Positions 3,195 to 14,489 of a DNA stretch of 64,000 nt are shown in pieces (position 1 is the stretch's first letter; every line of letters begins with the position of its first letter). Origin of the DNA: Bdellovibrio bacteriovorus W. Lineage in GTDB: Bacteria > Bdellovibrionota > Bdellovibrionia > Bdellovibrionales > Bdellovibrionaceae. The notes below the pieces were generated by a model, which saw nothing but the letters and a program-made list of their open reading frames with translations, ran no database searches and was not told the origin of the DNA. The stretch covers positions 2,914,001 to 2,978,000 of the forward strand of contig CP002190.1 of the NCBI GenBank assembly GCA_000525675.1, in the 5' to 3' direction. Both the position numbers and the translations under genes were made by a program.

Positions 3195-3599
3195 ATGATC
3201 AAACAAGCGCAAATAGTTACAGACGAGTTAATTCAAGTGATGAACGTTGGAAAAAAGGCGGGAATCTCAAAGCGTTCCCTATGCTTCATTATAATGAGTA
3301 ATGCTGCCCTCTACCTAATCGACGTCGATAGAGATTCGTTCTTGAATGCGGTAGCCGGAACAAGACAAGCGGTAAAAAGAATGGGGATGGCGGGTCCAAA
3401 GGACTTTAAGGGACCTATTGCCTACTCTGACCAACAATATATCGCTGTGGCGGTTGCCATTAGAAATGCAGTAAATATGTCTATTTCGAAGGGAGCATCT
3501 CGCCAGTTATTTTTCGACCTAACATTTAGGGTCTTCGCACCAGATTTTTTGTATGACAGCCCGAAATGGTTCAATCAGTACATAAAGAGACTACTCTAA
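3195..3599 (+). CDS. hypothetical protein, 134 aa
   Basis: The frame is open from 3135, but the ATG at 3195 is preceded by a strong ribosome site (GAGGAG, 8 bases upstream), so I take that start. The protein is soluble-looking and mostly helical, with a basic middle (TRQAVKRMGM) and an aromatic C-terminus (FLYDSPKWFNQYIKRLL). I recognise no family. It stands between two terminators, so it is a single-gene transcription unit in the island. It could be a regulator or accessory of the defence genes, but nothing in the sequence shows this. Confidence 0.65.
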   Translation: MIKQAQIVTDELIQVMNVGKKAGISKRSLCFIIMSNAALYLIDVDRDSFLNAVAGTRQAVKRMGMAGPKDFKGPIAYSDQQYIAVAVAIRNAVNMSISKGASRQLFFDLTFRVFAPDFLYDSPKWFNQYIKRLL

Positions 3600-3614
3600 A
3601 AAATATTTGGCATC

Positions 3615-3641
3615 TCGGGGGAGTTCTCTCCCCCTTTTTTT
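3615..3641 (+). terminator. strong terminator after the 134-aa gene
   Basis: A perfect 7-bp stem GGGGGAG/CTCCCCC (3617-3623 with 3628-3634) with a TTCT loop is followed by a run of T residues. Confidence 0.85.
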
Positions 3642-3684
3642 CCAGCCTACTTCGATAGTCACATCGTATGACGACGGCTGGAAC

Positions 3685-3708
3685 AAAATGGATGTCCTTA
3701 TCCATTTT
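3685..3708. repeat. perfect 9-bp inverted repeat
   Basis: AAAATGGAT and ATCCATTTT flank a 6-base spacer (GTCCTT). It lies in the gap between the island genes and the integrase remnant, with no T tract. It could be an operator, a recombinase site or a small hairpin. Confidence 0.5.
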
Positions 3709-3753
3709 GAGCAAAATAAATTTCGGTGTAACAAATGGTCTTAAGAATACATT

Positions 3754-3780
3754 GGTGTGGTAGCTCAGTTGGTATAACCA
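3754..3780 (+). other. tRNA 5'-half fragment
   Basis: Positions 3758-3774 match 17 bases of the tRNA-Phe acceptor/D-arm region (TGGTAGCTCAGTTGGTA), but in the opposite orientation to the intact tRNA-Phe at 4663-4738. The fragment is followed by unrelated sequence, with no anticodon or T-arm, so it is not a functional tRNA. It abuts the 3' end of the broken integrase gene and is likely a scar of element integration or rearrangement. Confidence 0.55.
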
Positions 3781-3789
3781 AGTGCCAAG

Positions 3790-4502
3790 TCATTCTTCGG
3801 ACAGTTTTCGCAGGTATTTTTCGAAGCGGCGCTGTTTGTATTTCTCAAAGCTTGTAGAAAGTCGCTTATGGCCCATTTGAATACTTGCCTGAGTAAATGT
3901 GCCACCATTATCTTCGATCCAATCAATAAATGATTTCCGACCAGACATCAATCCAATGCCTTTACCTATTTTTTTCAAATCATTGTAAGTTGGTTTAACT
4001 AAGTCTTTGGATTTAATAACCTCGAGTGCGTGAATTTGCTCGGGATACTCAGCGACAATGAATTTGAATCTATCAATATGGCTTGCTTAGAGTTGTCCGA
4101 GTATTTTTCCGGAAAGATTTTAAGCTTTGCAACCATCTTCAGAACAAATTCGATATGACAAATAACTTTGCAAAAATATTTTTCAGTTCCAAAAAATTCT
4201 GCCTTTACCCGTTGGTGAAAATCTCGAACATCATCTTCGGGAGTGTATTGACCATTAGCAGTTATTTCGCGGTTGGCTCTCTCGGCAGCCCTTAATCTGG
4301 AGTCAATTTCTTTGGTTTCACGATTTTTTTCGTTCAAATCTTGAACCAAGCGCAAATTGCCTTCAGTACTGCCGGTATTTTTAAAACCAATTAGGTGCCA
4401 ATCAGACGCTTTTATATAAACGTCTTTCTTTTTGCCGTTTTTATAGTCCTGTCTGTACAAATAGACCTTATTGCCTCGAGTTCTACAAAAGTAGCTCGCC
4501 AT
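3790..4502 (-). pseudogene. tyrosine recombinase/integrase remnant (frameshifted, shortened)
   Basis: Two frames together make an integrase. The 5' part (3999-4502, 167 codons) encodes an N-terminal region (MASYFCRTRGNKVYLYRQ) and the arm-binding helices. The 3' part is open in another frame from about 4085 to the stop at 3790. It encodes GRKSFIDWIEDNG and then QMGHKRLSTSFEKY, the C-terminal Arg, LGH-type His and catalytic Tyr box. The frame changes near 4070-4095. The stretch that should carry the first catalytic Arg is missing or too short, so the enzyme is almost certainly dead. It reads away from tRNA-Phe, the usual layout of a tRNA-targeting element. Confidence 0.75.
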
Positions 4503-4543
4503 AGATTTCTCCTTGAGACGAGGTGGTACAAATTCTTCGAGGT

Positions 4544-4555
4544 TAAATAGGGGTT
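4544..4555 (-). promoter_or_regulatory. 12-base motif shared with position 259-270
   Basis: The sense-strand sequence AACCCCTATTTA lies about 42 bases before the integrase start. The same 12 bases occur at 259-270, about 62 bases before the start of the partial gene at the left edge. Both copies are upstream of minus-strand island genes, so it may be a promoter element or an operator of a common island regulator. Confidence 0.4.
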
Positions 4556-4572
4556 TGAAGAATTAAAAAAAT

Positions 4573-4603
4573 ACCGACAACACCGACACAAGGATCACCG
4601 ACA
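4573..4603. repeat. three ACCGACA direct repeats between integrase and tRNA-Phe
   Basis: ACCGACA occurs at 4573-4579, 4582-4588 and 4597-4603. The middle copy is part of a 13-base sequence (4583-4595) repeated exactly in the tRNA-Phe anticodon-arm region (4689-4701). Position and form fit integrase arm/core binding sites or a repressor operator. Confidence 0.45.
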
Positions 4604-4612
4604 TATTTTAGA

Positions 4613-4643
4613 CAAAAAAAATCCCGCTGAGAGGCGGGATTTA
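4613..4643 (-). terminator. terminator of tRNA-Phe
   Basis: On the minus strand, AAATCCCGC-CTCTCA-GCGGGATTT is followed by a T run, starting about 20 bases after the tRNA-Phe CCA end. Confidence 0.85.
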
Positions 4644-4662
4644 AGATTCAAGCTAAGAAAAA

Positions 4663-4738
<76 letters not shown>

Positions 4739-4762
4739 ACTGGAATGTTCAAAGAGACCAAG

Positions 4763-4792
4763 AACTTATCTTTTGGTCCCTTTGATGTCAAC
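4763..4792 (-). promoter_or_regulatory. candidate promoter of tRNA-Phe
   Basis: The minus strand has TTGACA (4792-4787) and, 17-18 bases on, ATAAGT/TAAGTT as a weak -10 box. The predicted start would give a leader of roughly 15-20 bases before the tRNA. Confidence 0.4.
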
Positions 4793-4794
4793 AA

Positions 4795-5958
4795 TTAGGC
4801 TTTATCAAATGCATTTTTTAGATCTTCAATAAGATCCTCTAAGTCCTCAACCCCTACTGAAAGGCGAATAAGAGAGTCATCAATCCCCAGCTGCTTTCTC
4901 ATCTCTGGAGCTACGGAAGCGTGCGTCATAATGGCCGGGTGCTCAATCAAGCTCTCAACTCCCCCAAGGCTCTCCGCTAAAGAAAAAACATTCATGTTTT
5001 CTAGAAGCTTTCGCGCAGATTCCAAGCCACCTTTGATATAGAAAGTGATCATGCCGCCAAAACCACTCATTTGCTCTTTCGCTAATGAATGTTGTGGGTG
5101 AGATTCCAATCCAGGGTATAGAACTTTCTCCACTTTAGGATGAGATTCTAAGAACTTCGCAACGGCCATCGCATTTTCTTGGTGAGCTTTCATACGAAGA
5201 GGAAGAGTCTTTAAACTTCTTAAGCACATAAAAGCCTCGAAAGGACTTTGCGTAGCTCCGATTCCGTTACTTAAGAATGCCATGCGCTCAGCGATGTCTT
5301 CGCGAGATGTAACTGCGATTCCACCCACTACGTCACTATGACCTCCGATATATTTAGTCGCCGAATGAACAACAATGTCAGCACCTAAATCCAATGGCTT
5401 CTGGAAATAAGGACTCATGAAAGTGTTATCAACTGCCACAATGATTCCTTTTGCTTTAGCAATCGCAGAGATCTTTTTTATATCTACTAGCTTCAGAGTG
5501 GGATTTGTTGGTGTTTCAAGCCATACCATTTTTGTGTTTGGCTGAATGGCTTTTTCAAAGTTTTCAGGATGAGTCAGATCAATAAACGAAAACTCAATAC
5601 CATTATGCTTAATGATACGGTTGAACATACGATTTGTACCACCGTACATATCGTCCATTGCAATCACGTGATCGCCTGCTTTAAACATATGAAGAATTGT
5701 CGCCGTTGCTGCACTTCCAGAAGAAAATGCAAAACCAAACTTACCGTTTTCAAGACTTGCTAGGCAATCTTCGTAAGCTTTGCGCGTAGGATTGTGGGTA
5801 CGAGAATACTCCCATCCTTTATGCACGCCAGGAGACTCCTGTACGAATGTCGATGTCATATAAATCGGAGTCATGATCGCACCCGTTGTCGGATCAGGCG
5901 ACTGTCCCGCATGAATTGCACGTGTAGCAAAACCCATTTTATCGTTCATCTTTTTCAT
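4795..5958 (-). CDS. cystathionine gamma-lyase / gamma-synthase (PLP enzyme)
   Basis: The protein has 387 residues, the usual length for the Cys/Met-metabolism PLP family. The PLP lysine is K202 in HSATKYIGGHSD; SSGSAA (79-84) and YGGTNR are phosphate- and substrate-loop motifs. It lies 14 bases after a cystathionine beta-synthase-like gene. The pair therefore fits reverse transsulfuration (homocysteine to cystathionine to cysteine), which favours gamma-lyase over gamma-synthase; sequence alone cannot exclude the synthase activity. I chose the first ATG because AAAGGG lies a suitable distance upstream; an in-frame ATG at 5949 is the alternative. Confidence 0.88.
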   Translation of the reverse strand: MKKMNDKMGFATRAIHAGQSPDPTTGAIMTPIYMTSTFVQESPGVHKGWEYSRTHNPTRKAYEDCLASLENGKFGFAFSSGSAATATILHMFKAGDHVIAMDDMYGGTNRMFNRIIKHNGIEFSFIDLTHPENFEKAIQPNTKMVWLETPTNPTLKLVDIKKISAIAKAKGIIVAVDNTFMSPYFQKPLDLGADIVVHSATKYIGGHSDVVGGIAVTSREDIAERMAFLSNGIGATQSPFEAFMCLRSLKTLPLRMKAHQENAMAVAKFLESHPKVEKVLYPGLESHPQHSLAKEQMSGFGGMITFYIKGGLESARKLLENMNVFSLAESLGGVESLIEHPAIMTHASVAPEMRKQLGIDDSLIRLSVGVEDLEDLIEDLKNAFDKA

Positions 5959-5972
5959 CTTAAATAACCCTT

Positions 5973-7013
5973 TTATTTTAATTTCTTAAGAGCTTCTTCA
6001 GCAGAAATCACAACGTTAAATGCATCTTTAATCTCTGACTCAGCGAGAAGTTCATTTTCTACCATCCACTGATCGTTAAATGCTTTGCTCAAGTATTGGC
6101 GTCCACTGTCTGGGAAGATCACTACAATATTCTGTGGCGTCTCAATATCCTTCGCCCATTGCATCGCACCGATTAAAGCTGCAGCACTAGATGGACCTAC
6201 TAATAGTCCTTCTTCAGCAACTAGTCGACGGGTCATTGAAAAAATATCTTTATCAGCCACACGCACAAAGCCATCGTAACGGTCTAAATGCACGTTTCCT
6301 GGGAGCATATCTTCACCAATGCCCTCCACCTTGTACGATCCAGGTGGGTCCACTATCTTTTTGTGGTAATAAAGATCGTATAAAATTGATCCAATTGGAT
6401 CAGCACAAACTACTTTGACGTCCTTATTCTGCTCTTTAAGATACTTTGCACATCCAGAAAGAGTTCCGCCCGTTCCTGCGCCACCAACCAAGATATTCAC
6501 CTTACCATCTGTTTGATCCCAGATTTCTGGACCCGTGGTTTGGTAATGTCTTTCTGGATTGTCATTATTGAAAAACTGATTTGCCAAGAATCCACCCGGA
6601 ATTGATTCCGCAATTTTCTTAGACACTGAATAGTGACTCATTGGATCTTCTGGATCTACCATCGGAGTAATGACAACCTGAGCTCCATAAGCTCTTAAGA
6701 TCGCTCTTTTTTCATCACTCATCTTCTGAGGCATTACAAATATACATTTATAACCCTTCACCGCTGCAACAAGTGCAAGTCCAACCCCCGTATTACCAGA
6801 AGTCGCCTCAACAATCGTGCCGCCTGGCTTCAGATCTCCGCGCTTTTCAGCCTCTTCGATCATTGCCACAGCAACACGATCCTTAATACTTCCACCTGGG
6901 TTGAAGTATTCTACTTTTGCGAAATAGTTATGCTTCTGTTCAGCCGTAACGCGATTTAACTTAACAAGCGGCGTGTGCCCAACGGTTTCTAAAATCGTAT
7001 TCATCACTTTCAT
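5973..7013 (-). CDS. cystathionine beta-synthase (catalytic domain only)
   Basis: The PLP lysine is K44 in NPGGSIKDR; SGNTGV and GGAGTGGT form the substrate and phosphate loops. The downstream block PDSGRQYLSKAFNDQWM is typical of cystathionine beta-synthase rather than O-acetylserine sulfhydrylase. It makes cystathionine from serine and homocysteine. At 346 residues it lacks the C-terminal regulatory CBS-domain pair of the eukaryotic enzyme, as in most bacterial forms. It is cotranscribed with the downstream lyase and with the upstream 68-residue gene, whose stop is only 5 bases away. Confidence 0.88.
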   Translation of the reverse strand: MKVMNTILETVGHTPLVKLNRVTAEQKHNYFAKVEYFNPGGSIKDRVAVAMIEEAEKRGDLKPGGTIVEATSGNTGVGLALVAAVKGYKCIFVMPQKMSDEKRAILRAYGAQVVITPMVDPEDPMSHYSVSKKIAESIPGGFLANQFFNNDNPERHYQTTGPEIWDQTDGKVNILVGGAGTGGTLSGCAKYLKEQNKDVKVVCADPIGSILYDLYYHKKIVDPPGSYKVEGIGEDMLPGNVHLDRYDGFVRVADKDIFSMTRRLVAEEGLLVGPSSAAALIGAMQWAKDIETPQNIVVIFPDSGRQYLSKAFNDQWMVENELLAESEIKDAFNVVISAEEALKKLK

Positions 7014-7255: not shown

Positions 7256-7693
7256 TCATCCGGACCCCAAAGAGTGAAAAAGATTGTTCATTAAGGGCCC
7301 AAAAAGGAGTGCCAAAAAGGCGGGAAATTGAAAGAGAAGCAAAGGAATCATCAAAATAAATGGCAGGCGAGCAAGCTTATCATTTATTTCTTCGCCACAA
7401 GCCTCCACAATCTCCTCCTCTAGCTGCATGAGCGTGTTATAAACACTCTCTCCCTGCAATCCCTTCTCTAGAACGGTCAGCAGAGCTCGTCGATAGGGGG
7501 ATTTAAAGGACTTCACCAACTCATCCGGGCTTCGTCCTTGCTCCAAAAACGCAAGCCACGTGAGCACTGAGGTCGAAAATTCCCCTTCATTATGTTTTAT
7601 ATACTCAACAATCCCCATTTTTATGGATCGCCCCTGTTCTATTCCCCGCTTCACGCCCATTAAAAGCTCTAAGGGCGGCGCTAAACCTTCCAC
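7256..7693 (-). CDS. TadC-like type II secretion F-domain protein
   Basis: The product has 145 residues from a GTG start that is preceded by AAGGAGG; the frame is open to an ATG at 7723, but that start has a weaker site. The conserved F-domain pattern is visible (LLMGVKRGIEQGRS, FLEQGRSPDELVKSF, EEIVEACGEE), and it ends in one or two membrane segments (LPFILMIPLLLFQFPAFLALLFGPLM). TadC pairs with TadB as the inner-membrane platform of Tad/Flp pili. It is short for a full TadC (about 300 residues) and corresponds to its C-terminal F domain. Its start overlaps the end of TadB. Confidence 0.75.
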   Translation of the reverse strand: MEGLAPPLELLMGVKRGIEQGRSIKMGIVEYIKHNEGEFSTSVLTWLAFLEQGRSPDELVKSFKSPYRRALLTVLEKGLQGESVYNTLMQLEEEIVEACGEEINDKLARLPFILMIPLLLFQFPAFLALLFGPLMNNLFHSLGSG

Positions 7694-8421
7694 TTCATCC
7701 TCCTTCCAATCATAAACATCCAAAACAAACCGATTTTAAAGACAATCACTGACAACAAAATCAATTTTCGATTTTCAAAGAAGCCAAACTGCAAAATTAT
7801 GAAAGAAAGAAGGGCCAAATAAAGTGTGGTGACAATTATCGCCTGTGCCTTCAGCTGTTGAGTCACTTGTCCGGACCTACGTCGAAAATCTTCCTGCATC
7901 TTTAACTCTCTTCGCAATGCCTTGAGTTGTTCAAAATATTTTGATTGTGAATGCGCGATACGATGAAGCTCAGTGCTGAAACGCTTGAGCAGTGCGCTTT
8001 TCGCGGGAGGTGATGAATCTTCCGCGAAGACATAAAGATGAACTTCTTTGAGTTGATTCTTTATCCAACCCTCTTGTATTTCCGTCGCTTCTCGCATAGA
8101 AACGTGCATCGATTTACCGCTTTGAATGTTCAGAATCACAAGATCGAGATACGGAATGAGGACTTTGCGAATCCTGTGATTTAAGAAAATACGCAAAATT
8201 ATTGGAAAAAACTTTAAAGAAGTTAAAAGAATGCCGATGAAAAGCCAGAGCGTGAGAGATGAACTCTTTGTTGAGCCCATCAGAACGACGATAACCACCA
8301 TGACAACCGCCGAAACTAACTGCTGACGTCTAAATGGAATCGAAAACTCTGTGGCAACTTGGGAAATTGTACGGATGGCGATCCAATATCCGAACAGCGA
8401 TACCAAAAAAGAAAACAACAA
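7681..8421 (-). CDS. TadB-like inner-membrane platform protein
   Basis: The frame is open to 8586, but the upstream part would run through the ribosome site of the divergent small gene at 8568. A TTG at 8421 follows GGAGG with 6 bases spacing and gives 246 residues that begin directly with a membrane segment, so I take it. Hydrophobic segments flank a cytoplasmic region (LDLVILNIQSGKSMHVSMREA), then two more segments lie near the end, the TadB layout. No tad ATPase or secretin genes are in the window. The pair may serve the prepilin-like protein at 28654-29559 or a cluster elsewhere. Confidence 0.72.
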   Translation of the reverse strand: MLFSFLVSLFGYWIAIRTISQVATEFSIPFRRQQLVSAVVMVVIVVLMGSTKSSSLTLWLFIGILLTSLKFFPIILRIFLNHRIRKVLIPYLDLVILNIQSGKSMHVSMREATEIQEGWIKNQLKEVHLYVFAEDSSPPAKSALLKRFSTELHRIAHSQSKYFEQLKALRRELKMQEDFRRRSGQVTQQLKAQAIIVTTLYLALLSFIILQFGFFENRKLILLSVIVFKIGLFWMFMIGRRMKWKV

Positions 8422-8567
8422 AGCACACCTCCACCACCAGTGACGATCGCAAAAAATATGCAAGGTAAATTTTTTGTTGACGTAAGTCGTCGAATTGGGA
8501 AAACTAAAGTTAAGTAATTTTTTTTCAGTTAGAAACAACAACAACGTTTGCATCCTAGGAGGAGCAC

Positions 8568-8654
8568 ATGGCAAAGAAAACAGCAAAAAAAGTAGCTAAG
8601 AAAGCTACAAAAAAAGTAGCTAAAAAAGCTACTAAAAAAGCTGCTAAGAAGTAA
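8568..8654 (+). CDS. 28-residue histone-H1-like Lys/Ala peptide
   Basis: An excellent ribosome site (AGGAGGA) and ATG are followed by 28 codons composed only of Met, Ala, Lys, Thr and Val in a repeating pattern (AKKTAKKVAKKATKK...), then TAA and, 29 bases later, a strong terminator. Ribosome site, stop and terminator together indicate a genuine micro-gene. The composition matches the AAKK tails of histone-H1-like nucleoid proteins and the tail of L21 in this window (36443-36994). DNA or RNA binding is likely on charge alone; function is unknown. Confidence 0.75.
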   Translation: MAKKTAKKVAKKATKKVAKKATKKAAKK

Positions 8655-8747: not shown

Positions 8748-9587
8748 CTAGAAGAAATACAAGGCTCCGATTCCACCGTTTGGAATCAGCATATCGCGAT
8801 TGATTTCATACATCGCCGTTAGCTCCGCAAACACTGAAAGTCCCGCAAGATCACCACGCAATTGATTGTACTGAAGTCCCGCTGAAACGTTCGCAAAGTC
8901 TGTGGCAAACTTTCCTTCGCTCTTTTCTTTATCGGTTAGTACCATATCCAAAATGGATGAATGTTTGAACTCAGAGCTCACGCCGCGAGAATTATACCAG
9001 CGTGAATACGTTACGGACGTGTATGGATTTAGGAACTTGCCCTCAAAAGAATGCTTCCAACCTAGACCTATCGTGTTGTAACCAGGTCCAGCACCAAACC
9101 CTGCGATCACCCCGTCGGCATCTTCAAAGTTAAATTCCATATTGAAAGCCGCAACTCCTAACTGACCGCCAGCAGAAATGCCCGCACCTACTTTTTTCTC
9201 ATCTCGTAACTTCAAATTTGAAGTGTATGACGGACCTTCCATCTCACTCCAATAGCTGTTTTGAGCACCTGGAATTTCGCGAAGCTCACCTGAAGCTGCT
9301 GGTGCAACAACCATTGGTTGTGAAAAGGACTCCTCTGATTCCACAACATTACTGACTTCACGCTGAACCGGGGCTTCATCAATGGTCAAAGCACCCATAT
9401 GAGGCATATTATCCGGGTCTACTCTTTGCTGTTGGCGTTTTCTCATAGATTGGCTGTATTCAGCTTCAATAGCTTGAGACTTTGTTTTGATACGGCTAGA
9501 TGACGATCCCAAATTCAGTGGTTCTGCCTTTGCCGCAACACCCATCACTACACATAGTCCTAATGTTATTAGGGATGTTTTTTTCAT
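8748..9587 (-). CDS. exported protein of the MCE operon, outer-membrane-like C-terminus
   Basis: The ATG at 9587 is preceded by GGAGAACCT and begins a signal peptide (MKKTSLITLGLCVVMGVAAKAEP), so the upstream in-frame ATG at 9608 is unlikely. The 279-residue product has a low-complexity N-terminal third, then alternating Gly/aromatic segments (GAGISAGGQLGVAAFNMEF, GFGAGPGYNTIGLGW) that suggest an outer-membrane beta barrel. It ends in Phe-Phe (GIGALYFF), a barrel-type terminus. It is the last gene of the MCE transporter operon and could be an outer-membrane partner. No known family is recognised. Confidence 0.75.
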   Translation of the reverse strand: MKKTSLITLGLCVVMGVAAKAEPLNLGSSSSRIKTKSQAIEAEYSQSMRKRQQQRVDPDNMPHMGALTIDEAPVQREVSNVVESEESFSQPMVVAPAASGELREIPGAQNSYWSEMEGPSYTSNLKLRDEKKVGAGISAGGQLGVAAFNMEFNFEDADGVIAGFGAGPGYNTIGLGWKHSFEGKFLNPYTSVTYSRWYNSRGVSSEFKHSSILDMVLTDKEKSEGKFATDFANVSAGLQYNQLRGDLAGLSVFAELTAMYEINRDMLIPNGGIGALYFF

Positions 9588-9609
9588 AGGTTCTCCTCTC
9601 CCATGCATT

Positions 9610-10392
9610 CTAGAATATTCTAGCTTTTACGCCTTCTTGTTGGAAAAACTTTTTAATAGCTGGTCCATCCAAAGGCTCTAAGCGGAAAAGTAACTTATGA
9701 ACCAAGTCATAAGTGTCCTCAGCCTTCTTAGATCTTAAATTATTTGTCATATATGCGACATCGTCACTAATTTTGACCGCGTTATCCAATAATCTTGCGA
9801 CTTCACGATTCTTGGTCGTCTTATCCAAGAGCACCAGAGTTTTATTAAAGTTCGTCACCAGCTTATCTAGTTGTTGGATTGTATTGGTGATAGAACCCTC
9901 GTTTTTTTCAACCATTTCGATGATTTTACCAGCAAGACTGTAGCTTTGAGAGATAAGCTGATCGATTCGCGGAGGATCTTCCCCCCGCACGAAGTCTCCT
10001 GATTGATGGACGCCAGACTCGCTAGTTCCGGTAGAAACCTCTAAAAACTTTTCGCCGATCACACCTGCCAGGTTAATATAAAACTTTGAGTCCTGACGAA
10101 TACTCGTCCAAGCCTTGGGCTCAATCGAAACCGTCAAACGAAGCTTCACTTCTTCTCCATTAGCCATTTTAAAATCAGGATCAAAGGTGATGGACTTAAC
10201 CTTCCCCACCTTAATTCCCATCACACGCACAGGAGATCCCTCTTCGATACCGCCAGCGTAGTTGTACATTATATGAAGCTCTTTAGAAGACGAAAACGGA
10301 TTTGAATACCCCATAAGATAGGCAAACACCGCCACCAATACCAAAGATGCAATTGCTAATAGTCCTACACGAGCTTCGATCTTCATGATCAC
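9610..10392 (-). CDS. mlaD: MlaD/MCE-family substrate-binding protein
   Basis: An N-terminal membrane anchor (residues about 8-27) is followed by one MCE domain (YAGGIEEGSPVRVMGIKVGKV, then GVIGEKFLEVSTG), and after it a long helical C-terminus (residues about 150-230) with MlaD-type periodicity. MCE proteins form hexameric rings in the periplasm that bind lipids and guide them between the membranes. The gene sits between a permease gene and the exported protein gene in one operon. The 260-residue length exceeds E. coli MlaD (183) because of the helical extension, which may form a tube or needle. Confidence 0.88.
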   Translation of the reverse strand: MIMKIEARVGLLAIASLVLVAVFAYLMGYSNPFSSSKELHIMYNYAGGIEEGSPVRVMGIKVGKVKSITFDPDFKMANGEEVKLRLTVSIEPKAWTSIRQDSKFYINLAGVIGEKFLEVSTGTSESGVHQSGDFVRGEDPPRIDQLISQSYSLAGKIIEMVEKNEGSITNTIQQLDKLVTNFNKTLVLLDKTTKNREVARLLDNAVKISDDVAYMTNNLRSKKAEDTYDLVHKLLFRLEPLDGPAIKKFFQQEGVKARIF

Positions 10393-10394
10393 TC

Positions 10395-11114
10395 CTAATA
10401 AAAGAAACTAAATAAATAAGATAAAATAAAATCAGTACCAATAATCAGAATAGAAGAGGCCACAACAGCTTTGGTTGTAGCCCTTCCCACGCCTTCAGCG
10501 CCCTGTTCGCATTTGAAGCCATAATAACAAGAAACCATCGGGATGATCGCCCCAAAGCACGCGCCTTTTACCATCGCAAAATAGAAGTCTTGAAATTGAA
10601 CGAATCGACGCATGGATGACAAAAATAGACTGGTAGGAAAACCCAAATAGGATTCACTCACCAACATAGCCGCAAACAAACAGGTTAAGTTGGCAAATAC
10701 AATTAAGATGACACCAGCTACAATACAGGCCAATAAACGAGGTACCACAATGAACTGTAAGGGATTAATTCCCAGCATTCGCAGAGCATCTACTTGTTCA
10801 GTAATCTGCATGGTTCCTACTTCGCTAGCATAACCAGCTCCAACTCTAGAGGTCAGCAATAACGCCGTCACCACGGCCCCGAGTTCTCTCAAGATGAGCA
10901 TCGCAGCAAAGCCAGGAACTAATGAATCATTTTGGATGACCATCTTCATATGAAAAGAGGATTCTAAAATTGTCACGACAGCCGCGAAAGTTACGCAGAA
11001 AAGTATAATCGGAAGGCTTTGATTACCTACAAAATACAACTGCTGGGCAAATTCTCTAATACGAAATGGTCGCTCAAAAAGAGCTGAAAAAATCTGAGTA
11101 AGGTATCTGGTCAT
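10395..11114 (-). CDS. MlaE-family permease, second copy
   Basis: The 239-residue product has the MlaE signature (GFAAMLILRELGAVVTALLLTSRVGAGYASEVGTMQITEQVDALRMLG, given here only by its key blocks RELG, SRVGAGYASE, TEQVDALR) and five to six membrane segments. It overlaps the preceding permease gene by 4 bases and precedes mlaD by 2 bases. Most Mla systems use a homodimer of one MlaE. The presence of two different ones here points to a heterodimeric permease. Confidence 0.87.
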   Translation of the reverse strand: MTRYLTQIFSALFERPFRIREFAQQLYFVGNQSLPIILFCVTFAAVVTILESSFHMKMVIQNDSLVPGFAAMLILRELGAVVTALLLTSRVGAGYASEVGTMQITEQVDALRMLGINPLQFIVVPRLLACIVAGVILIVFANLTCLFAAMLVSESYLGFPTSLFLSSMRRFVQFQDFYFAMVKGACFGAIIPMVSCYYGFKCEQGAEGVGRATTKAVVASSILIIGTDFILSYLFSFFY

Positions 11115-11881
11115 GCGCCCTCTCCAATTACTAAGCGCACAAGGACATCACCAACAAAACTAGTAAACCAGTCCGCGACAACAATACAAATCATGGTAGA
11201 AACAGCGGTTTGCACCACCGCTCGCCCAACTCCTTTTGCGCCGCCGGTAGCGAAGAATCCTTTATAGGTACAGATAGTTGCTAGTATTAAAGCAAAAGAT
11301 CCGCACTTAATGAGACCTAATACAATAGACGCTGGCTGCACTATTCGGGGAATGTGTCGCAGATATTCTTCCACATGAACGCCCACAAATAGGGAGGCTA
11401 AAAAAGCTCCCCCTAAGACGGACATCAAAAGTCCCAATCCCAATAAAAAGAAACTCGAAATAATTATTCCAAGAAAGCGTGGCACAATAAGTTCTTGCAG
11501 TGGATCTGCTCCCAAGCAGCGAATGGCATCAATCTGCTCAGTGACTCTCATTGTTCCAAGTTCTGCAGATGTAAATGCTCCAACCTTCCCACTCAGCATG
11601 AAGGCAATCAAAAGAGGACCGATCTCACGAAAAGTTCCACTTGTGGCTAAGCCCCCGAGATACCCTAAGGCACCAAACTCTTTCATTTGCAAAGCAAACT
11701 GCACGCTCATAATAGCGCCTACGAAAAAACCCGCCATGGCTGTAGTCGGAAGACTATTCCAAGCAACAGACCAAATCTGTTCCAATACAAGCTTAACTGA
11801 AATTTTTTTCTTAAATAGTGTCTTAAGTATTTCAGAGAGAAAAATCAGTGGAGCGCCAACTTCAGAAAGCAGCTTCATCAT
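11111..11881 (-). CDS. mlaE: MlaE-family permease, first copy
   Basis: The frame is open to 12016, but the upstream part is antisense-type overlap with the ATPase gene. The ATG at 11881 follows GGGGAGATCT and overlaps the ATPase stop (ATGA), so it is the start, giving 256 residues. The MlaE core is present (REIGPLLIAFMLSGKVGAF, LGTMRVTEQIDAIRCLG), with five to six membrane segments. It would form the transmembrane part of the lipid ABC transporter, together with the second permease encoded downstream. Confidence 0.88.
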   Translation of the reverse strand: MMKLLSEVGAPLIFLSEILKTLFKKKISVKLVLEQIWSVAWNSLPTTAMAGFFVGAIMSVQFALQMKEFGALGYLGGLATSGTFREIGPLLIAFMLSGKVGAFTSAELGTMRVTEQIDAIRCLGADPLQELIVPRFLGIIISSFFLLGLGLLMSVLGGAFLASLFVGVHVEEYLRHIPRIVQPASIVLGLIKCGSFALILATICTYKGFFATGGAKGVGRAVVQTAVSTMICIVVADWFTSFVGDVLVRLVIGEGA

Positions 11882-12612
11882 AGATCTCCCCTCACTTCTG
11901 CTAAGAAATCTCTTACGAGGGGGACCGAGCTTTTTAAAAGTTCTTTTGGCGTTCCTGAATCTAAAATTTGCCCTTGATCTAAAACGATGATTCGATCGGC
12001 AATCTTTAAAGCACACTCCATGTCATGACTAACAACAATAGAGGTCGTTTGAAGTTCGCGTGAAAGTTTGAAAATAAGTTCGTTGATCAAAGTGGTCGTT
12101 ACCGGATCTAAACCCGTCGTCGGCTCATCAAACAGAAGAATCTCGGGCTGAATAGCCAGAGTGCGTGCCAGACTGACTCTTTTCTGCATCCCATAAGAGA
12201 TTTGCGGAGGATACTTTGCCGATATGTCAGGTAGATTCACCCACTCAAGAGCTTGCAACACCTTCTTGTGAATCTCATCCTCTGATAAGGAAAAGTGACG
12301 GCGCAAACCGTAAGCAATATTTTCAAACACAGTTAAAGAGTCAAAAAGGGCTGGATGTTGAAAGACCATTCCGCATTTTTTTCGTATTGAAAAAAACTGA
12401 TCTTCAGATAATTCTTTTAATGAAATTCCATCGATGAAAATCTCACCTTCATCGGGCCGCATGAGTCCGACAATATTCTTCAGCAAAACAGATTTACCCG
12501 TGCCAGAAGTGCCTAGAATAAATACGATCTCTCCTTTTTGAATTTGAAAATTCAAACCATTTAAGATCGTCCGAGGCCCAAATTTTTTAACGAGATTTTT
12601 AAATTCAATCAC
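11878..12612 (-). CDS. mlaF: MlaF-like ATPase with intact Walker motifs, altered signature
   Basis: The protein has 244 residues. Walker A is GTSGTGKS (34-41), Walker B LLFDEP (159-164) has the catalytic Glu, and the H-loop is SHDM (195-198). The ABC signature reads ISYGMQKR (138-145), with Tyr140 where family members have Gly. In a nucleotide-binding dimer the signature works on the other subunit's ATP. This subunit therefore has a good catalytic site of its own but a poor signature for the partner. It powers MCE lipid transport together with the next ATPase. Confidence 0.9.
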   Translation of the reverse strand: MIEFKNLVKKFGPRTILNGLNFQIQKGEIVFILGTSGTGKSVLLKNIVGLMRPDEGEIFIDGISLKELSEDQFFSIRKKCGMVFQHPALFDSLTVFENIAYGLRRHFSLSEDEIHKKVLQALEWVNLPDISAKYPPQISYGMQKRVSLARTLAIQPEILLFDEPTTGLDPVTTTLINELIFKLSRELQTTSIVVSHDMECALKIADRIIVLDQGQILDSGTPKELLKSSVPLVRDFLAEVRGDL

Positions 12613-12644
12613 TGCTTAATGGTATTCATTCGTCATTCTCTCGG

Positions 12645-13406
12645 TCAACACTGCAATTCTTTAGAAGTTAGTGGTCCCATCGACAAACCCTGAATGAATT
12701 GATGGACGCGGGGGTCTTTACTTCTTTTGGTTTCTTCTACCGTTCCCGTATCAAGCAACTTACCGTCGCAAATAAACAATATTCTGTCTGCTATTTGATA
12801 GGCCCGATTCATATCGTTCGTCACGGCAACAATTGTCGAGCCCTGTTCTTTTTTCAGTCGTAAAATAAGTTCGATAATCTTTCTTGAGGTGATGGGATCA
12901 AGCCCCGCCGTCGGATCATCATAGAAAATAATTTGAGGCTTCAAAGCCAGAGCGCGGGCAATGCCGAGGCGTTTTTGCATGCCACCGCTGATTTCATCAG
13001 GAAATAAGTCTTTGGCGTGAGCGAGCCCCACCTCCTCCAAGAAGAACATCGCCTGCTCTGTTCGCTCTTTCTCAGAAAGAAGGGTTCTTTCCCTCAAAGG
13101 GAAGACTATATTTTCTAAGCAGGTCAAAGAATCAAAAAGCGCGTTCTTCTGAAAAAGAATTCCCAAACTGGAGATGATTTCGCTTTGCGCAAAAAAGTTC
13201 GAATCAATGGGGGTTTGTTTTATAAATGCCGAGCCATTACTAGGGGTTATGAGACCACACATCGTCTTTAGTAGAGTTGTTTTTCCCTCTCCACTTGGCC
13301 CCACGACAACAATCGCCTCTCCTTCGGCGATGTTAATCGTCACTTCTTTAAGCACTTCGTGATTTTGAAAGCTCACGCTGACATTTTCCAAGCGAATGAT
13401 ACTCAT
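12645..13406 (-). CDS. MlaF-like ATPase with degenerate catalytic residues
   Basis: The protein has 253 residues. Walker A GPSGEGKTT (36-44) and the signature SGGMQKR (140-146) are intact. The catalytic Glu after Walker B is Asp (FYDDP, D164), and the H-loop His is Asn (VTNDM, N197). Hydrolysis at its own site should be weak, while its signature can complete the partner's site. Together with the neighbouring ATPase this gives one consensus and one degenerate site. It is the first gene of the six-gene MCE operon, 32 bases before mlaF. Confidence 0.88.
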   Translation of the reverse strand: MSIIRLENVSVSFQNHEVLKEVTINIAEGEAIVVVGPSGEGKTTLLKTMCGLITPSNGSAFIKQTPIDSNFFAQSEIISSLGILFQKNALFDSLTCLENIVFPLRERTLLSEKERTEQAMFFLEEVGLAHAKDLFPDEISGGMQKRLGIARALALKPQIIFYDDPTAGLDPITSRKIIELILRLKKEQGSTIVAVTNDMNRAYQIADRILFICDGKLLDTGTVEETKRSKDPRVHQFIQGLSMGPLTSKELQC

Positions 13407-13547: not shown

Positions 13548-14489
13548 ATGGCTCACAAAAGAAATAAAATCGCAGTCATCGGTGCTGGTTTTGTTGGTTC
13601 TACAACTGCACATTGGGCAGCCCAAAAAGAATTAGGCGACGTTGTTATTCTAGACATCAACGAAGGCACAGCAATTGGTAAAGCACTTGATCTTGCTCAA
13701 GCAGGTCCAATTGAAATGTTTGACACTAAAGTTAAAGGTACTAGCAACTATGCTGATATCGCTGACTCTGATGTTGTCATCATCACTGCAGGCATGCCAC
13801 GTAAACCAGGAATGAGCCGCGATGAACTTGTTGGTATCAACGCGAAAATCGTAAAAGAAGTTTGTGAAGGCGTTAAAAAATACGCTCCAAACTCTTTTGT
13901 TATCGTAGTTTGTAACCCAATGGACGTTATGGCAGTTTACGCAAAACAAATTCTTGGCTTCCCAAGAGAGCGCGTAATCGGTATGGGCGGTTGCCTTGAC
14001 TCTGCTCGCTTCAGAACTTTCATCGCTGAAGAGCTCGACGTTTCTGTTAAAGACGTCACTGGAATTGTTATCGGTAACCACGGTGACGCAATGATGCCTC
14101 TAGTTCGCCAAGCTTCTGTTTCTGGCATTCCTTTAACAGAACTTCTTTCTGCAGATCGTATCGCAGCAATCGTTGCGCGCACAAAACAAGCTGGTGCTGA
14201 AATCGGTGGCCACTTAAAAACTGGCTCTGCATTCTTTGCCCCTTCTCGTGGTGCAGTTGAAATGGCGGAAGCCATTCTAAAAGATCAGAAACGTGTTCTT
14301 CCAGTAGCTGTTGAGCTCACTGGTGAATTTGGCGTTAACGAAGGTCTTATGGTTGGAGTTCTTGCAACTCTTGGCGGAAAAGGTATTGAAAAAGTTCACA
14401 CTTTTGAAATGAACGCACAAGAAAAAGAAGAGTTCACAAAATCAGTAGATGCAGTTCGCACTCTTGTTTCTGCACTTAAAAATATCTAA
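13548..14489 (+). CDS. mdh: malate dehydrogenase (LDH-like type)
   Basis: The protein has 313 residues. The dinucleotide motif is GAGFVG (12-17) with D36 as NAD ribose ligand. The substrate loop MPRKPGMSR gives R85 and R91, D151/R154 lie in GCLDSARF, and H178 is the catalytic His in NHGD. Arg at the selectivity position indicates malate over lactate. It interconverts malate and oxaloacetate in the TCA cycle. The ribosome site is AAGGAGA, and it heads an operon with sucC and sucD; a hairpin lies in the mdh-sucC gap. Confidence 0.95.
   Translation: MAHKRNKIAVIGAGFVGSTTAHWAAQKELGDVVILDINEGTAIGKALDLAQAGPIEMFDTKVKGTSNYADIADSDVVIITAGMPRKPGMSRDELVGINAKIVKEVCEGVKKYAPNSFVIVVCNPMDVMAVYAKQILGFPRERVIGMGGCLDSARFRTFIAEELDVSVKDVTGIVIGNHGDAMMPLVRQASVSGIPLTELLSADRIAAIVARTKQAGAEIGGHLKTGSAFFAPSRGAVEMAEAILKDQKRVLPVAVELTGEFGVNEGLMVGVLATLGGKGIEKVHTFEMNAQEKEEFTKSVDAVRTLVSALKNI

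Follow-up and report, generated by a model that had tools for sequence, protein, structure and literature searches.

Genetic organisation of the locus

The stretch of DNA analysed here (the window, 64,000 nucleotides) is part of the 3.0-Mb single-contig genome of Bdellovibrio bacteriovorus W, and carries, on the minus strand, a six-gene operon that diverges from the malate dehydrogenase-like gene at 13548. The operon encodes an ATP-binding cassette (ABC) transporter of the MCE family with two different ATPases and two different permeases. In this study, we report from sequence comparison that the motif changes of the two ATPases complement each other and are conserved across the phylum Bdellovibrionota, that the subunits appear to have single origins and to be retained together, and that a gene for a predicted outer-membrane barrel belongs to the same operon.

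The first two genes encode MlaF-like ATPases, here called ATP2 (12645-13406; predicted degenerate-site subunit) and ATP1 (11878-12612; predicted catalytic subunit). They are followed by genes for two MlaE-family permeases, PERM2 (11111-11881) and PERM1 (10395-11114), whose products are 28% identical, by the gene for the MCE-domain protein MlaD (9610-10392), and by a sixth gene (8748-9608) encoding a secreted protein. ATP2 lies 32 bases upstream of ATP1, and from ATP1 to the sixth gene the spacing consists of 4-base overlaps or gaps of a few bases. The start codon of PERM2 is most likely the ATG at 11881, giving a protein of 256 amino acids and a 4-bp overlap with the ATP1 stop codon; the open reading frame listing starts at the GTG at 12016.

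Family assignments were made with Pfam, which matched MlaD (PF02470) once in the MlaD protein at 62 bits, MlaE (PF02405) in the two permeases at 219 and 206 bits, and ABC_tran in the two ATPases at 127 and 107 bits. MlaF proteins were among the best full-length PDB relatives of the ATPases. The permease, the MCE-domain protein and the MlaF-type ATPase that mark an MCE-family (MlaE, type VIII) ABC transporter are thus all present. A preliminary description of this DNA had listed five of the open reading frames with their families, and all five lie on the minus strand at the positions it gave, with Pfam in agreement. Its operon stands for these five genes but was incomplete, the sixth member having been missed outside the range that it covered.

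Sequence motifs of the two ATPases

In ATP1 the motifs read GTSGTGKS, FQHPAL, QISYGMQKR, ILLFDEPTTGLDP and VVSHDM. The Walker A, the Q-loop, the Walker B with its Glu, the D-loop and the H-loop His are all intact, and SYGM replaces the signature SGGM. The corresponding motifs of ATP2 are GPSGEGKT, FQKNAL, EISGGMQKR, IIFYDDPTAGLDP and AVTNDM; here the SGGM signature is kept, with DD for DE and TND for SHD or THD. The three substitutions that had been noted from the window alone are real: on alignment, consensus MlaF proteins have Gly where ATP1 has Tyr, and Glu and His where ATP2 has Asp and Asn.

In ABC proteins, each ATP is held by the Walker A, Walker B, Q-loop and H-loop of one subunit together with the signature of its partner (PMC7756269). 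Under this rule only an ATP1-ATP2 pair yields a consensus site, and all three changes land in the other site. From this general knowledge of ABC proteins we infer a heterodimer with two composite sites. Site A would combine the Walker A and B motifs and the Q- and H-loops of ATP1 with the SGGM of ATP2; being of full consensus, it should hydrolyse ATP. Site B would combine the SYGM of ATP1 with the nucleotide-binding motifs of ATP2, in which Asp replaces Glu and Asn replaces His, and should bind and hold ATP with poor hydrolysis or none.

Conservation across the phylum

Orthologous loci came from two sources, whole genomes of the phylum and named genome records, and all ATPases were aligned. 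For the main motif counts, sequences more than 95% identical were removed, so that genomes reached twice dropped out. The named records were scanned for the peptide patterns LLFDEPTT and [ML]VFQ[HFQ]PAL[LF], which favours ATP1 with an intact Glu. False or unrelated rows of the first ATPase alignment (ATP1 rows L059, L084 and L098) were left out of the ATP1 and ATP2 counts. Two of the records, L168 ('Lysobacteraceae') and L170 ('Proteobacteria'), may be misnamed, and presence outside the phylum is not claimed. As a control, 29 MCE systems with a single ATPase were analysed, from the same phylum and from outside it.

The signature Gly of ATP1 was replaced in all 99 non-redundant orthologues, by Tyr in 84, Phe in 13 and His in 2, while the catalytic Glu, the H-loop His and the KS of Walker A were each present in 99/99. 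All 96 non-redundant ATP2 orthologues had the SGG of the signature. Their residues at the Glu and His positions were Asp-Asn (62), Glu-Asn (19), Asp-Ser (6), Glu-Ser (5), Asp-His (2), Glu-Thr (1) and Ser-His (1), and none of the 96 had both Glu and His. In the single-ATPase systems SGG, Glu and His were all present (29/29). Loci found through ATP2 alone, with no selection on ATP1 motifs, gave the same pattern (ATP1 52/52, ATP2 54/54).

When 120 loci with both ATPases were counted without the 95% filter, so that genomes reached by two routes remain in the count, site B carried three lesions in 87 and two in 33; at none of these two-gene loci did site A lack a named consensus residue (Glu, His or Gly). 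Lesions are thus confined to one composite site and the other is of consensus, throughout the 99 ATP1 and 96 ATP2 sequences. Orthologues intact in both subunits were sought, and none was found (0/96 ATP2 with Glu and His, 0/99 ATP1 with Gly). The changes recur on the same subunit in every orthologue, a check that the preliminary description had proposed, against 0/29 of the single-ATPase systems. One correction is needed: the Glu-to-Asp change of ATP2, correct for the window, is not universal, as deep lineages keep the Glu and lack only the His.

These counts bear on a reading in which both sites hydrolyse and the substitutions only tune rate or affinity, the asymmetry being one of sequence and not of mechanism. 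ATP2 keeps the Glu in 25/96 orthologues, Asp can sometimes stand in for Glu, and ATP2 has an intact Walker A, Q-loop and D-loop wherever the sequence is complete (with one Q-loop exception). However, the H-loop His is absent from 93/96, at least two lesions always fall in the same site, and the same set of changes marks the degenerate sites of the best studied ABC proteins (PMC7756269), so that activity at both sites appears very unlikely.

The two ATPases also differ at their C-termini. A GPL-type tail was found in 79/96 ATP2 and 6/29 single-ATPase MlaF sequences and in 0/99 ATP1, one ATP1 regular-expression match (L081) lying outside the tail and not being counted. Retention by ATP2 of the C-terminal 'handshake' of MlaF is not claimed, its tail being shorter than that of E. 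coli MlaF.

Evolutionary history and co-retention

In a tree of 154 ATPases, the ATP1 sequences fell among the MlaF-type proteins as a single clade (support 100), and those of ATP2 formed one group with six orphan ATPases (support 95). In the permease tree, PERM1 and PERM2 were each a single clade (support 99 and 100, respectively). On these trees, each of the four subunits most simply arose once, and the two halves of the transporter would have travelled together. Lineages outside the class of Bdellovibrio often retain the Glu of ATP2 with the His already gone, which suggests that the Glu changed last, after the signature and His; this order is not proven, as the ATP2 tree is not rooted firmly enough.

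Presence of the ATPases in genomes of the class was scored with thresholds set by hand from the gap in E-values (below about 1e-60 for ATP2 and below about 1e-79 for ATP1), with operon checks added. Both ATPases were present in 76 genomes and neither in 30; one genome had ATP1 only and one had only an ATP2-like orphan. In the ATP1-only genome, the contig stops about where ATP2 lies in its sister species. The co-occurrence gave a Fisher p of 2e-24, a value that ignores shared ancestry. The heteromeric system was absent from a whole sister genus (eleven genomes), one member of which (G025) has only two MlaE permeases. A connection between the system and growth within prey is conceivable.

ATP2 is not always linked to the other genes. 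It lies 0.5-4 kb away from ATP1 in several Bdellovibrio species, and in two genomes (G041/L119 and G036/L164) it is on a different contig from the rest, with its lesions still present. In another genome, ATP1 and PERM2 are naturally fused in frame into a protein of 570 amino acids (L072:2339-4051 / L126:6001-7713), and this fusion suggests that PERM2 is the permease of ATP1.

Both the fusion and the unlinking of ATP2 would fit an operon that encodes two separate homodimeric transporters, in which ATP1 works with PERM2, ATP2 works with PERM1, and a single MlaD is fed by both; the permeases and ATPases, two of each, are enough for two such cores. However, neither homodimer would have a consensus site, given the lesions in the orthologues. 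Both signatures of an ATP1 homodimer would carry Tyr, Phe or His, and both sites of an ATP2 homodimer would be without Glu, His or both, in all of about 100 lineages. Moreover, the operon has a single MlaD and the two ATPases are retained or lost jointly. We regard two homodimeric transporters as highly improbable.

ATP2 is the faster-evolving subunit, with a mean identity of 50% compared with 59% for ATP1 at the same loci, as would be expected of a decaying paralogue heading for loss while an ATP1 homodimer does the work. Such decay is scarcely credible, as ATP2 is kept throughout the phylum, even where it is unlinked, and its Walker A, signature and D-loop are intact, and the universal loss of the ATP1 signature Gly makes sense only if a partner supplies a good one. 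The preliminary description had argued for selection and not decay, and the wider data favour that view: the lesions never occur in the other composite site, the subunits form single old lineages, and the two ATPases are co-retained even across contigs. The motif, lineage and co-retention patterns fit selection for an obligate asymmetric heterodimer.

MlaD and the sixth gene

The MlaD protein has one MCE domain (residues 37-122), which has MCE-like strands in the structural model, preceded by a predicted N-terminal transmembrane helix and followed by a C-terminal region modelled as four helices of low confidence. It ends in the conserved motif E/Q-E-G-I/V-K/R-A..F (FLQEEGIKA..F in the window), which is nearly invariant throughout the phylum, as would be expected of a docking motif.

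For the product of the sixth gene, an outer-membrane beta-barrel of 8 strands is predicted, spanning residues about 140-286. It had no Pfam or NCBIfam match. In the AlphaFold model the barrel is formed with pLDDT (the per-residue model confidence) of 90-98 over residues 140-286, and Foldseek returned the barrels of OprF and OmpA, the best PDB match being the OprF barrel domain 4rlc (TM-score 0.77 by target, 17% identity). The protein has the even number of strands, the N-terminal export region (recognised by eye) and the C-terminal aromatic residue of outer-membrane beta-barrels, and this last residue, Phe, was invariant in 28 sequences. A profile of the sixth gene found 61 loci, 56 of them with the gene directly after mlaD and six deep-lineage loci included, and no homologue beside the single-ATPase systems examined.

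Pfam profiles of MlaC (PF05494) and MlaA (PF04333) had no match in the genome of strain W, while the E. coli controls were detected, and no MlaB (STAS) subunit was found among the six operon genes. With no detectable MlaA or MlaC, the system is not the Mla pathway proper, and for the same reason the modelled barrel is a plausible outer-membrane end of the system.

At nine Oligoflexia-like loci, mlaD is followed by another conserved protein of about 240 amino acids (..RSSIIEPFRIPTRSM..), which by eye resembles signal peptidase I. Downstream of the operon in the window are two further genes (7256-8586), one of which encodes a protein of 155 amino acids with a weak match, below the cut-off, to the type II secretion F domain. 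Genes resembling this pair, with products ending in K/R-W-K/S/N, follow the operon in several relatives, and the neighbourhood looks conserved.

Other MCE loci and orphan ATPases

The genome of strain W encodes five permeases of the MlaE family and four proteins with an MCE domain. Two of the other loci (L096 and L097) are ordinary triplets of permease, ATPase and MlaD, each with a single consensus ATPase. A further locus, L098 (G000:C1:1370585-1373080; locus 3587-6083), has an MlaE permease, an MCE protein and a strongly degenerate ABC ATPase that has lost nearly all its motifs (signature VPGRVRKL, LLDDPSVGLGQ, SYDD) and still has GAGKS at Walker A. A more decayed relative, without Walker A, is found at a locus with the same arrangement of genes in a second genome of the order (L196), and the permeases of the two loci form one clade. 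Judged by sequence, this type is a conserved pseudo-ATPase in an MCE system.

The six orphan ATPases that group with ATP2 (L080, L084, L085, L086, L087 and L093) all have Asp for the catalytic Glu (6/6), and no recognised MCE permease adjoins them. These orphans might be alternative partners of ATP1, which would then pair with the ATP2 of the operon or with an orphan according to condition. Such an orphan is found in some genomes only, however, and the other two matches in the genome of strain W appear to be single-ATPase systems; we consider exchangeable partners very unlikely.

Proposed arrangement of the transporter

Taken together, the sequence data make it very probable that the operon encodes an MCE-family (MlaE, type VIII) ABC lipid transporter with a heteromeric core, in which one ATP site hydrolyses and the other is degenerate. 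The core would comprise a single copy each of PERM1, PERM2, ATP1 and ATP2, with a ring of the single MlaD protein (a hexamer, by analogy) on top, and the dedicated barrel encoded by the next gene is probably linked to the transporter. One hydrolysis would drive each cycle. A lipid is proposed as substrate because of the family; whether it is a phospholipid or another lipid, the direction of transport, and a contact between MlaD and the barrel are guesses.

Several observations weigh against this asymmetric heteromeric transporter. Deep lineages retain the catalytic Glu of ATP2, and site B is therefore not necessarily inactive in all lineages; Glu to Asp is a conservative change, and signature changes are tolerated by some ABC sites. 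ATP2 is at times unlinked from the remaining operon, and the few orphan ATP2-like genes lacking an adjacent permease leave room for other partners of ATP2-type proteins. At some loci mlaD is without the barrel gene as its neighbour, the other gene taking this place in the Oligoflexia-like lineages. Finally, the support is all drawn from sequences. A single-chain route to a dimer model, by reading through the single in-frame TGA between ATP2 and ATP1 (L147), was dropped when MAFFT placed all ATP2 rows on the ATP1 half, which would have left the model uninformative.

A wider picture, offered tentatively and rather doubtful, is that of a self-contained trans-envelope lipid machine in Bdellovibrionota. 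Here the heteromeric transporter, hydrolysing ATP at one site and holding it at the other, would pass lipid through the MlaD ring to or from its own 8-stranded barrel, which would replace MlaA and MlaC, and the asymmetry would set the direction.

No heterodimeric ATPase pair of an MCE system was found in the literature searched, most subscription papers being out of reach, nor anything relevant on MCE systems in Bdellovibrio; the main text of a Bdellovibrio transposon screen does not name the system (PMC6561027). Most work on degenerate ATP sites concerns type IV exporters, and the reason for the upkeep of such sites is debated. An independent origin in a transporter class with an unrelated membrane part, phylum-wide and beside symmetric paralogues in the same genomes, would be a natural experiment on the benefit of asymmetry. 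For the MCE field, each half of the transporter could be tagged and mutated separately, unlike those of the homodimeric MlaFE, and the barrel is a candidate for the outer-membrane partner where neither MlaA nor MlaC is detectable.

Comparison with known systems

The MlaFEDB systems of E. coli, P. aeruginosa and A. baumannii (type VIII) share with the Bdellovibrio system the MlaE-fold permease, the MlaF-type ATPase (with SGGM in ATP2) and an MlaD with one MCE domain. Mla systems are normally homodimeric, as had been assumed at the outset: MlaFEDB has the composition MlaF2E2D6B2, with identical ATPases (PMC7790496), and MlaF is a homodimer (PMC7367683). Whereas MlaFEDB has identical ATPases, identical permeases and the MlaB regulator, in the Bdellovibrio system both pairs are predicted to be heteromeric, the operon is without MlaB, and a barrel gene is present. 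That barrel has eight strands like those of OmpA and OprF, but differs from these proteins in having no detected OmpA-like periplasmic domain and in its fixed place beside an MCE operon.

The mycobacterial Mce1 system (YrbE1A/YrbE1B/MceG/Mce1A-F) has a permease heterodimer, an MceG homodimer and six different MCE proteins (PMC9882608). Its two different MlaE-type permeases resemble PERM1 and PERM2, which form separate clades here. In place of six MCE proteins and a shared MceG, however, the Bdellovibrio operon has one MCE protein and two unlike ATPases.

The pattern of asymmetric ABC proteins that had been recognised in the window is borne out. TAP1/TAP2, CFTR, TM287/288, BmrCD and TmrAB have the same complementary lesions, with the signature affected in one subunit and the Walker B Glu in the other. 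The closest human matches are TAP and CFTR, in whose degenerate sites the signature, the Walker B Glu and the H-loop are all altered (PMC7756269), and for which a hydrolysing site beside one that holds ATP has likewise been proposed. These proteins have the unrelated type IV (formerly type I) exporter fold, whereas the membrane part of the Bdellovibrio system is of the MlaE/MCE type.

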